DNA of 64,000 nt. It comes from Erysipelothrix amsterdamensis. GTDB taxonomy: Bacteria > Bacillota_I > Bacilli_A > Erysipelotrichales > Erysipelotrichaceae. This document shows, in pieces, positions 3,826-50,033 of the stretch. The position numbers and the translations under genes are program-made. The notes under the pieces were generated by a model, which saw only the letters and a list, made by a program, of their open reading frames with translations, had not been told where the DNA came from and ran no database searches. Each line of letters opens with the position of its first letter. The first letter of the stretch is position 1. The DNA is taken from NCBI RefSeq assembly GCF_940143175.1, contig NZ_OW659496.1, positions 1,240,001-1,304,000 of the forward strand. Direction: 5' to 3'.

Positions 3826-3854
3826 TTGCTTAATGAACCTCAATTTGTTATAGT
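3826..3854 (+). promoter_or_regulatory. Promoter of the mgtA leader
   Basis: TTGCTT at 3826-3831 and TATAGT at 3849-3854 are separated by 17 bases. The transcript would begin near 3861, directly before the strong ribosome site of the leader ORF, so almost all of the 5' leader is the ORF itself. Confidence 0.6.
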
Positions 3855-3878
3855 TTTAAAGCGAGGAGGTGGAAACCA

Positions 3879-3968
3879 ATGGAAGGTCAGAGTTGCATGA
3901 ACGATAGTATTAGTGAACGATCTTTGGATGATGACCCCTTGGGTGCACCTCAAGAAAGTCATCGATAA
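3879..3968 (+). CDS. Acidic/proline leader peptide upstream of mgtA
   Basis: 29-codon ORF (starts MEGQSCMNDS, ends APQESHR) with a near-perfect GAGGAGGTGG ribosome site, too short for routine gene calling. Residues 17-20 are Asp-Asp-Asp-Pro. In Salmonella the mgtA leader MgtL also has acidic residues alternating with prolines, and such stretches destabilise the translating ribosome when Mg2+ is low (intrinsic ribosome destabilisation). Its position 40 bases before an MgtA-type ATPase fits the same role. A hairpin (3929-3964) is built from the codons of the Asp-Pro stretch and beyond. The ORF and ribosome site are seen; the sensing role is inferred by analogy. I recognise no homolog of this peptide. 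Confidence 0.65.
   Translation: MEGQSCMNDSISERSLDDDPLGAPQESHR
3929..3964 (+). promoter_or_regulatory. Hairpin at the 3' end of the mgtA leader ORF
   Basis: Outer stem GATGAC (3930-3935) pairs with GTCATC (3958-3963); inner stem CTTGGG (3938-3943) pairs with CTCAAG (3949-3954) around a five-base loop. There is only a weak T tract behind it. A second hairpin, TTCATAC/GTATGAA (3975-3994), stands just before the mgtA ribosome site AAGGGAG. CCCTT at 3936-3940 could also pair with AAGGG of that site. The arrangement suits attenuation, but which structure forms is unknown. Confidence 0.5.
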
Positions 3969-4008
3969 ATTTTGTTCATACAAGACAGTATGAAGGGAGT
4001 TTATAACT

Positions 4009-6597
4009 ATGTCAGAAATGAAAAAAGAGCTAATTCAAACACTTCAACTTAATCAAGAAGATTTGTTTGAACAATTGGATGCATCTCCGGAGGGTTATAC
4101 ATCCAATCGAGCAGAGGAAAAGCTCGAAGAATTTGGTCCAAATGTGATCAAACCTCAAAAGAAGAAAAACCCTCTTATTGGATTCGTTAATGTTTTAATT
4201 AATCCATTTAACTTAGTATTGATGGTAGTTATTGTAATTACATTTATTACAGATATTTTATTAACACAGGAAAAAGATTATTTAACCATTTCGATTTTAG
4301 CGATTATCATTATAATTTCGACGCTAATTTCATTTATTCAGGATGAACGCTCAAGTGCGGCCAGCGAGAAACTCTTAAATATGGTGTCAAATACAACGGC
4401 AGCACTACGTGATGGTCAGTTTATTGAAATTCCAATTGATGATTTGGTCTTAGGTGATGTTGTACGGCTTTCTGCCGGAGACATCATTCCAGCTGATATG
4501 CGTGTAATATCCGCAAAAGACTTATTTATATCACAAGCCACATTAACTGGTGAATCACAACCCATCGAGAAGTTTGTAAAGTTTGATGAGTCTCAAATGG
4601 ACGCAGACAGTGATTACACGAACTTATGTTTAATGGGAACTAACGTTGTTTCCGGTACAGCTCGTGCAGTTGTAATTCGTACTGGGAGCGATACCTATCT
4701 TGGACAAATGAATCGATCATTAAAGAATTCGAAACGTCCAAACAGTTTTGAGAGCAGTATTTCGACAGTAAGTCGCTTACTCATGAAATTAATGCTAATC
4801 ATGTTACCCGCTATTTTCATCATTAACTGGGTGTTTAAAGCAAATCCAATTGAATCTTTTGTTTTTGCACTTACTGTTGCCGTTGGATTAACACCAGAAA
4901 TGTTACCCGTTGTATTGAGCAGTGGCTTGGCACGTGGTGCCATCAACATGTCAAAGCATCAAACGATCGTAAAATCACAAAGTTCAATTTCATCATTTGG
5001 TGAGATGGATGTATTATGTACCGATAAAACGGGGACGATAACTCAAGATGATATTATTTTAGAACGCTACATGGATACAACCGGTGAAGATGACATGCGT
5101 GTATTACGTCATGCTTATCTGAACTCTTATTTCCAAAGCGGACTCAAAAACTTGATTGACCTCGCTATTATTGAACGTGCAACAAGTTACAATATGGATG
5201 ACCTTGTAAACTATTACACAATTGTTGATGAGATTCCTTTTGACTTTGCACGCCGTCGAATGAGTGTTATTTTGGAAGATAGTAACGATAAAAAACAGCT
5301 CATTACAAAAGGTGCTGTTGAAGAAATTATGAAATTATGTTCACACATTGACCGAGATGGAAAAGTATTTCCACTTGACGATGAAACGCGTGAAGAAGCA
5401 ATGGATGTATATATGCAACATAATAATGACGGTTTGCGTATGATTGCTGTTGCTCAGAAAAATGAATTGCCTACAGATCATGAGTTTGGTGTCGAAGATG
5501 AGAAAGATTTGGTTCTAATCGGTTTCATCGGTTTCCTTGATCCACCTAAAGAAAGTGCCAAACCAACAATTGAAAGTTTAAACCGTCATGGTGTTGATGT
5601 TGTAGTTATCACTGGTGATAGTTTAGGCGTTGCTAAAAAAGTATGTAGTAAAGTTGGTATTGATACTGAAGTAACTTATATGGGTAAAGATATTGAAGAA
5701 ATGAGTGATGAACAGCTTCAATCCGTTGTTGAATCCTGTCACCTCTTTGCTAAAATATCCCCTGTACAAAAACAACGTATTGTAGAAGCATTCCAAGCGA
5801 ATAATCATACCGTTGGTTTCTTAGGCGACGGCATTAACGACGCGCTTGCACTAAAACAAGCTGATGTTGGTATCTCGGTTGATACTGCTGTAGATATCGC
5901 TAAAGAGAGTGCTGACATCATTCTTCTGAAAAAAGACTTAACTGTTTTAGAAAAAGGAATTATGGAAGGCCGTAAGACCATTGTAAATATGATTAAGTAT
6001 CTCGAAATGGCTGTAAGTGGTAATGTTGGGAATATGATTTCCGTAATTGTAGCAAGTGTGTTCTTGCCATTCTTACCACTATTACCTGTTCATATTCTTG
6101 TTCAAAATTTACTCAGTGATCTTGCCCAAACTGGAATTCCATTCGATAACTGTGATGACTCAGATCTCGATAAACCTCGCAAGCTTGAATCAGAACGATT
6201 GGTTCACTTTATGTCTGTATTTGGACCTTTAAGTTCTGTCTTTGATATTATGTGCTTTATCGTGTTATGGTATGTTCTAGGCGTGAATACAGCCGAACAA
6301 GCTACCTTATTTCAAACATTCTGGTTCACATTCGGAATCTTATCTCAAGCACTCATTATCTTTGTAATTCGTGCTAAAAAGCCGTTCTCATTCAAAAACA
6401 AACCTGCATCAATTTTGGTTGGTGTATCGACACTTGCTGTCATTATTACCTTGATCTTCGTTCTAACACCGCTTGCTAAGTCAATTGAACTTCAAATCTT
6501 AAGTTTAAACCATCTGACATATGTTCTTGGAATCGTAGGTCTATACCTTATTACCACCGCAATTGTTAAGAAATTTGTTTGGACGCCATTGGATTAA
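4009..6597 (+). CDS. mgtA: Magnesium-importing P-type ATPase
   Basis: 862-residue P-type ATPase of the type IIIB Mg2+ family; moves Mg2+ into the cell at the cost of ATP. Visible motifs: N-terminal cation-transporter domain (residues 10-75), actuator loop LTGESQPI near residue 180, phosphorylated Asp in CTDKTGTIT near residue 340, and GDGINDALALKQADVGIS near residue 610. After this, IPFDNCDDSDLDKP near residues 708-721 resembles the IPFDNVD segment typical of MgtA/MgtB. About ten membrane spans. AAGGGAG precedes the ATG at 4009. Transcribed alone, after the acidic leader ORF, and followed by a strong terminator shared with rpmE2 on the other strand. Regulation by Mg2+ is likely. Confidence 0.94.
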   Translation: MSEMKKELIQTLQLNQEDLFEQLDASPEGYTSNRAEEKLEEFGPNVIKPQKKKNPLIGFVNVLINPFNLVLMVVIVITFITDILLTQEKDYLTISILAIIIIISTLISFIQDERSSAASEKLLNMVSNTTAALRDGQFIEIPIDDLVLGDVVRLSAGDIIPADMRVISAKDLFISQATLTGESQPIEKFVKFDESQMDADSDYTNLCLMGTNVVSGTARAVVIRTGSDTYLGQMNRSLKNSKRPNSFESSISTVSRLLMKLMLIMLPAIFIINWVFKANPIESFVFALTVAVGLTPEMLPVVLSSGLARGAINMSKHQTIVKSQSSISSFGEMDVLCTDKTGTITQDDIILERYMDTTGEDDMRVLRHAYLNSYFQSGLKNLIDLAIIERATSYNMDDLVNYYTIVDEIPFDFARRRMSVILEDSNDKKQLITKGAVEEIMKLCSHIDRDGKVFPLDDETREEAMDVYMQHNNDGLRMIAVAQKNELPTDHEFGVEDEKDLVLIGFIGFLDPPKESAKPTIESLNRHGVDVVVITGDSLGVAKKVCSKVGIDTEVTYMGKDIEEMSDEQLQSVVESCHLFAKISPVQKQRIVEAFQANNHTVGFLGDGINDALALKQADVGISVDTAVDIAKESADIILLKKDLTVLEKGIMEGRKTIVNMIKYLEMAVSGNVGNMISVIVASVFLPFLPLLPVHILVQNLLSDLAQTGIPFDNCDDSDLDKPRKLESERLVHFMSVFGPLSSVFDIMCFIVLWYVLGVNTAEQATLFQTFWFTFGILSQALIIFVIRAKKPFSFKNKPASILVGVSTLAVIITLIFVLTPLAKSIELQILSLNHLTYVLGIVGLYLITTAIVKKFVWTPLD

Positions 6598-23184: not shown

Positions 23185-23400
23185 AAAAAAAACACCATCC
23201 AAAGGACGATGAATCGTGGTACCACCTTAATTTACATACATATGTATGCCTCATTGCCGTTAACGCGGGCCACGTAACATCTTACTTAAGTTCAGACATC
23301 AATCTCCCAAGCTACATTCACCAGTGCATAAGATTGTTTCACACCAACCAACAATTCTCTTTGCTTAATACAAGGGTTACTCTTCTTGTTCAACGATTTA
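23185..23400 (-). promoter_or_regulatory. T-box riboswitch, valine type
   Basis: Leader ahead of the acetyltransferase-valS unit. The minus strand shows the Stem I features AGTAA, AGAGA and GGTTGGTG, then the specifier loop with GAATGTAGC (GAA at 23319-23317), the T-box AAGGTGGTACCACG (about 23228-23213) and a terminator (23193-23211) followed by eight T residues. The bulge TGGT expects a tRNA with an A discriminator base, as tRNA-Val has. GTA (Val) lies one base after GAA; a strict reading directly after GAA gives TGT. The downstream valS makes valine the likely ligand. Confidence 0.88.
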
Positions 23401-23404
23401 TCTT

Positions 23405-49777: not shown

Positions 49778-50033
49778 AAAAAAAACTTCACCCATACAGG
49801 GCGAAGTCTTCGCGGTACCACCTGAAACACTACGTAAAATACGTAACTCAATAGGAATACAAACATATTCCTGTCCTGTTAACGGGGACAACCGTCGTAA
49901 ACTACTTACCGAAGTGTTCATTCCGCCTTTCATGAGGCCATTCACTTTCGAAGTAAGATCTGTTCACACCAACCACAGACTCTCTGGACATACTTCTTGA
50001 AAGCTACTCATCTCAATCATAAAGTTTGTTATT
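49778..50033 (-). promoter_or_regulatory. T-box riboswitch, tryptophan type
   Basis: Minus-strand Stem I with AGTA, AGAGA and GGTTGGTG, and a specifier loop where GAA (49943-49941) is directly followed by TGG (49940-49938), the Trp codon. The AGTA/GAA pair flanks a helix (GCTTTC/GAAAGT), as in a standard loop E. T-box AGGTGGTACCGCG near 49823-49811 and terminator 49778-49807 with eight T residues. The TGGT bulge expects an A discriminator base, whereas Bacillus tRNA-Trp has G; this should be checked. Confidence 0.9.

Follow-up and report, generated by a model that had tools for sequence, protein, structure and literature searches.

The analysed window, a stretch of 64,000 nucleotides of the Erysipelothrix amsterdamensis genome, carries the gene mgtA (4009-6597, forward strand), which encodes a Mg2+-translocating P-type ATPase of 862 amino acids. 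The product matches TIGR01524 (ATPase-IIIB_Mg, the MgtA equivalog) with 991 bits, well above the cut-off score of 611, and includes the Pfam E1-E2_ATPase and cation ATPase domains. Upstream of its ATG codon at 4009, and separated from it by 40 nt, lies a leader open reading frame of 29 codons plus a stop codon on the same strand (3879-3968), hereafter the uORF, that encodes MEGQSCMNDSISERSLDDDPLGAPQESHR. The uORF is preceded by a full Shine-Dalgarno (SD) sequence, AGGAGGTGG (3864-3872, forward strand), and an equivalent strong SD is present in the congeners that bear the uORF. Its codons 17 to 20 (3927-3938, forward strand) encode Asp-Asp-Asp-Pro (DDDP), a motif that is invariant as D[DE]DP across the genus. 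An earlier note on this DNA had described a 29-codon reading frame with a strong SD in front of a Mg2+ ATPase gene, and this description is borne out. The leader peptide has no match in NCBIfam or Pfam; it is unlikely to work as a small membrane protein of the MgtS kind, given that by inspection it is hydrophilic and has no hydrophobic stretch.

A probable promoter, formed by TTGCTT and TATAGT separated by 17 nt and with the extended -10 element TGTTATAGT, is located at 3826-3854 of the forward strand. We infer it from the sequence, since a consensus promoter scanner gave no call there; several congeners carry the block TTTGTTATA(A/G)T at the equivalent position. As this promoter stands right before the uORF SD, the transcript would start at the uORF, probably around position 3861 and directly 5' of the SD, which would leave no space for an M-box upstream of the uORF. 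No intrinsic terminator was found in the mgtA leader of the window.

Convergent to mgtA is a gene for ribosomal protein L31 (PF01197; 6639-6884, reverse strand), and a second L31 gene is present elsewhere in the genome. In E. coli, L31 counteracts the destabilisation of the ribosome by acidic peptides; the adjacency of the two genes is probably a coincidence, because the sequence downstream of mgtA differs in the loci L004 and L006. The window also includes two T-box leaders (RF00230), at 23199-23402 and 49794-50029, both on the reverse strand.

The earlier note had seen no M-box or other magnesium riboswitch in this leader, and the Rfam analysis agrees for the leader and for the genome: no family reached its gathering score in the mgtA leader, where a permissive scan gave matches at chance level only, and the covariance model of the M-box (RF00380) found none either there or in the whole genome. 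The whole genome also carries no MgtE and a single match to CorA. In two congeners, a second mgtA paralog (L065 in G008 and L066 in G004) is preceded by an M-box and then by a uORF with an acidic run (IDDDDW), MQETTDAIDDDDWIY...; the M-box was called by Rfam in L065 and seen in the near-identical sequence of L066. An M-box-controlled mgtA paralog (L061) is also present in the congener genome G006, whose other mgtA locus (L005) lost its uORF.

The uORF is kept at 10 of the 11 congeneric mgtA loci with readable leaders, and one further copy lies at a contig end; L005 is the exception, in which the uORF is gone and the promoter and mgtA are retained. At the congeneric locus L011 (G007:C1:938367-940951) mgtA itself appears as two overlapping matches in different frames, which suggests a frameshift or a sequencing error. 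All of the eight divergent lineages compared have D[DE]DP, in which the sole amino-acid change is Asp to Glu. When all pairs of these lineages are compared, the differences within the motif at the first, second and third codon positions are 0, 0 and 57, a coding signature that points to selection acting on the peptide. In these lineages the distance from the start codon to the motif varies only by whole codons, the motif beginning at codon 14 to 17, most of the leader peptide outside D[DE]DP varies, and the C-terminal tail is free. The earlier note had raised the question of whether the acidic and Pro codons are kept while the rest varies, and the eight lineages answer it in the affirmative. 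Residue 2 is Glu in most lineages of the genus, and Asn or Lys in L010 and L012.

Leaders of this kind extend beyond the genus. A uORF was defined as an ATG-initiated frame of 8-60 amino acids with an SD match of at least 6 nt, located within 320 nt of the gene; as controls we used 138 genes whose intergenic regions measure 100 nt or more, drawn from 20 stretches of 20 kb. By this rule, a strong-SD uORF precedes 39 of the 94 Bacillota mgtA genes and 5 of the 138 control genes (Fisher 3e-13). An acidic residue 2 (Asp or Glu) occurs in 32 of these 39 uORFs, as compared with 13% of background genes (p 7e-22); given that the loci are not phylogenetically independent, five of the 39 belonging to the genus of the window, both p-values overstate the evidence, while the effect sizes are unaffected. 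The rarity of such uORFs before control genes and the third-position-only pattern of D[DE]DP in the genus argue that the leader ORF of the window did not arise by chance, and acidic uORFs in front of genes for Mg transporters form a genuine pattern of wider occurrence. MgtL-like ORFs (MDPDPTPL) were recovered only in loci from Proteobacteria, and serve as a positive control. A tally with an M-box pattern, which misses some of the M-boxes detected by Rfam, gave 8 loci with both elements, 31 with the uORF only and 7 with the M-box only. In the mycoplasma-type genomes of L171 and L174, where TGA encodes Trp, a conserved uORF, MSPLSSFNDEVPI..., is present 5' of mgtA.

Outside the genus two types of output were observed. 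In the terminator-type leaders an intrinsic terminator follows the uORF, whose codons pair with the 5' arm of the terminator (p 0.006). In the anti-SD-type leaders the mgtA SD lies under an anti-SD arm (0 of 50000 permutations), and this arm also pairs with codons 2-16 of the uORF (own partners -27.6 vs -18.9 kcal/mol, 0 of 50000). In both types a uORF free of ribosomes is predicted by these pairings to favour expression, that is, the direction of MgtL and MgtQ. As in the genus, Ser is mostly encoded by AGT in the mgtA leaders of other Bacillota, and in those other leaders GGAAGT pairs with the anti-SD arm.

For the genus leaders, RNAalifold on the alignment returned only seven pairs and no covarying or compensatory change; since indels shift the hairpin arms, this was replaced by a swap test, in which the arms of each species are compared with arms exchanged between species. 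Two hairpins were predicted, both on the forward strand. The first spans the whole uORF (3866-3951) and pairs the uORF SD and start (3866-3879) with the distal codons (3939-3951, PLGxP). The second (3965-4004) takes in the stop codon of the uORF and occludes the mgtA SD, AAGGGAG (3993-3999). Own partners were better than swapped ones for the first hairpin (p 0.004; 0.038 with other segment limits), and the test gave p 0.02 (0.07 with other limits) for the second, modest values that are to be weighed in view of the many segment pairs tried. No support was obtained in the genus for a pairing of DDDP with the uORF end (p 0.17-0.26), nor for one of the uORF middle with the anti-SD arm (p 0.19-0.31), although the latter is attractive by eye in L001, L006 and L007. 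The placement of the DDDP codons in the left arm of a hairpin, given in the earlier note, holds for one minimum-energy fold; in a slightly shorter fold they form the right arm of the whole-uORF hairpin.

On these grounds we propose, with about an even chance of being right, that the uORF is translated and acts as a cis-regulatory gate on mgtA translation, with DDDP as its likely Mg2+-linked sensor. The two hairpins would form the output, the uORF SD being held by its own distal codons and the mgtA SD being hidden by the hairpin over the uORF stop; because of this overlap, access to mgtA would depend on the travel of ribosomes along the uORF. The Asp-Asp-Asp-Pro stretch would be the sensor, as an acidic, Pro-containing nascent chain near the N-terminus would destabilise the ribosome, and more so at low Mg2+. 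We infer that the uORF is translated, that DDDP destabilises the ribosome in E. amsterdamensis, and that Mg2+ is the signal sensed; by analogy, it is plausible that the sensing principle is the same as that of MgtL. Several observations count against this mechanism: D[DE]DP starts at codon 14-17 instead of right after Met, L010 and L012 lack an acidic residue 2, L005 has no uORF and yet keeps mgtA, and the alternative pairing of the uORF middle with the anti-SD arm lacks support in the swap test.

A further objection came from folding the genus leaders with the stretch covered by a ribosome blocked. With the ribosome at DDDP, the mgtA SD is predicted to be as closed as in the naked RNA in most genus sequences, whereas with the ribosome near the uORF end it is predicted to be open; the leaders of L006 and L007 gave more ambiguous folds. 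The statement that the ribosome falls off and mgtA is switched on therefore does not follow from the structure visible in the genus. The opening of the mgtA SD only near the uORF end, together with the location of the uORF stop codon within the anti-SD arm, would fit plain translational coupling, in which ribosomes that finish the uORF melt the mgtA SD hairpin; the uORF would then be a constitutive or initiation-controlled gate, and DDDP would set the fraction of ribosomes that arrive, with no Mg2+ sensing. Such coupling leaves unexplained both the strict amino-acid conservation of D[DE]DP and the acidic uORFs before mgtA across Bacillota, and we consider it unlikely.

Less probable still is a Mg2+ sensor made of RNA only, in which high Mg2+ would stabilise both hairpins and close both SDs, low Mg2+ would loosen them, and the peptide would be incidental. 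The swap test of the uORF SD with the distal codons speaks for it, and so does the N-terminal block of the uORF. At codon 3 the amino acid is Gly, Asp, Val, Ser or Pro depending on the lineage, and the third base is always T, residue 5 is Ser (AGT) in 7 of the 8 lineages and Cys (TGT) in L068, and over codons 3-6 (3885-3896 in the window) the nucleotides NNT-CRR-AGT are kept across most of the genus; their retention despite amino-acid change hints at a constraint on the RNA in this block. In D[DE]DP, however, the changes fall at third positions only, which is the opposite of a constraint at the RNA level, no Rfam family matches the leader, and the RNAalifold consensus has no covarying pairs.

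The earlier note had proposed a specific version of the switch, in which ribosomes fall off at DDDP when Mg2+ is low, the mgtA SD is thereby released from a CCCTT segment, and mgtA is turned on. MgtL and MgtQ offer a precedent, and the complementarity of CCCTT and AAGGG is indeed present in the window, but this long-range pairing is not conserved (swap test p 0.81; L010 and L012 have no CCUU, and the SD of L007 is GGGAGG) and was rejected; as a local arm distinct from CCCTT hides the mgtA SD, this version is very improbable. We give equally little credence to a uORF that senses some other translation stress, for instance the supply of proline or EF-P, tRNA charging or drugs that target the ribosome. 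In its favour, Pro is conserved in DDDP and often also at LGxP, and mgtP of Salmonella responds to charged tRNA-Pro (PMC8092293), but the uORFs have only 1-3 Pro codons, in most lineages not consecutive, and the acidic codons are conserved as strictly as Pro.

Returning to a uORF that gates mgtA through DDDP, the sign of the response depends on the premise adopted. Judged by MgtL, MgtQ and the remaining Bacillota leaders, mgtA would be expected to be expressed as ribosomes abort under low Mg2+; static folding predicts the opposite sign in the genus, with opening as ribosomes reach the uORF end. The genus has a sensor-like peptide but no supported alternative pairing, and the response may have either sign.

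More interest attaches to the acidic mgtA leaders as a wider set than to the single leader of the window. No earlier description of uORFs before Bacillota mgtA was found in the literature searched, which took in few subscription papers. Tentatively, and with a confidence slightly short of even, we suggest that acidic leader ORFs with competing pairings (uORF with the anti-SD arm, or uORF with the terminator arm) represent a widespread and so far undescribed Mg2+-sensing system before Bacillota mgtA, which would work either by itself or following an M-box in series; the D[DE]DP leader of the window would be a lineage-specific form, with the sensor moved to the middle of the peptide and an output made of a self-sequestering uORF and an SD hairpin. 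In enterobacteria, the destabilisation of the ribosome by acidic nascent chains is a well-characterised Mg2+ gauge. With acidic uORFs in front of mgtA throughout the Gram-positives, this destabilisation would become a general, perhaps repeatedly evolved, Mg2+ sensor, and would explain how Mg2+ import is controlled in bacteria that have no M-box, such as E. amsterdamensis. Leaders with an M-box and a uORF in tandem would carry two Mg2+ sensors per transcript, and the Bacillota leaders would offer many natural variants for learning which features of a peptide destabilise the ribosome.

Among the known systems, the M-box (ykoK) governs mgtA in many Bacillota, in several loci directly 5' of a similar uORF, and is absent from the genome of the window. 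The mycobacterial uORF Rv1805A, which is associated with an M-box and acts through competition of SD1, anti-SD and SD2 (PMC12810186), also stands between Mg2+ sensing and a Mg2+-related operon; in contrast to the window leader, it is M-box dependent, its peptide is specific to mycobacteria, and it does not precede mgtA. In MgtL and MgtQ the acidic codons make the leader less well translated and increase mgtA and mgtB, respectively (PMC11282234, PMC8092293). For MgtQ of Salmonella the increase in mgtB is brought about by alternative stem-loops that free the RBS (PMC8092293). MgtQ shares with the window leader an acidic uORF, a stem-loop that occludes the RBS before a Mg2+ ATPase gene and a translational output, as this is read from the predicted structure of the window leader, and its competing pairings (uORF with anti-SD, anti-SD with SD) are also seen in other Bacillota leaders. 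However, MgtQ has 8 amino acids and is located between mgtC and mgtB, whereas the window uORF has 29 codons and lies at the 5' end of the transcript, and a competing pairing like 2:3 of MgtQ is statistically unsupported in the window genus (p 0.19-0.31). In E. coli, mgtA goes up when ribosomes drop off at the EPDP of MgtL under low Mg2+, and acidic residues play a part if they are located among the first 30 codons (PMC11282234). With MgtL of Salmonella and E. coli the window leader has in common a short acidic, Pro-containing ORF with a strong SD directly 5' of mgtA, a conserved acidic-Pro motif, and an acidic residue 2 in most lineages of the genus. The differences are that EPDP occupies codons 2-5, right after Met, while D[DE]DP starts at codon 14-17, and that MgtL works through a Rho switch while the output in the window looks like an SD hairpin, with no visible Rho switch. 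By inspection, MgtL (MEPDPTPLPRRR...) has no similarity to the window peptide beyond M-E/D, so the description of the latter as an unrelated peptide is right with regard to sequence and has to be qualified for the acidic residue 2, common to MgtL-type and other Bacillota leaders. The window leader is thus like MgtL and MgtQ in anatomy and logic, and falls outside the MgtL family both in sequence and in the position of its motif.
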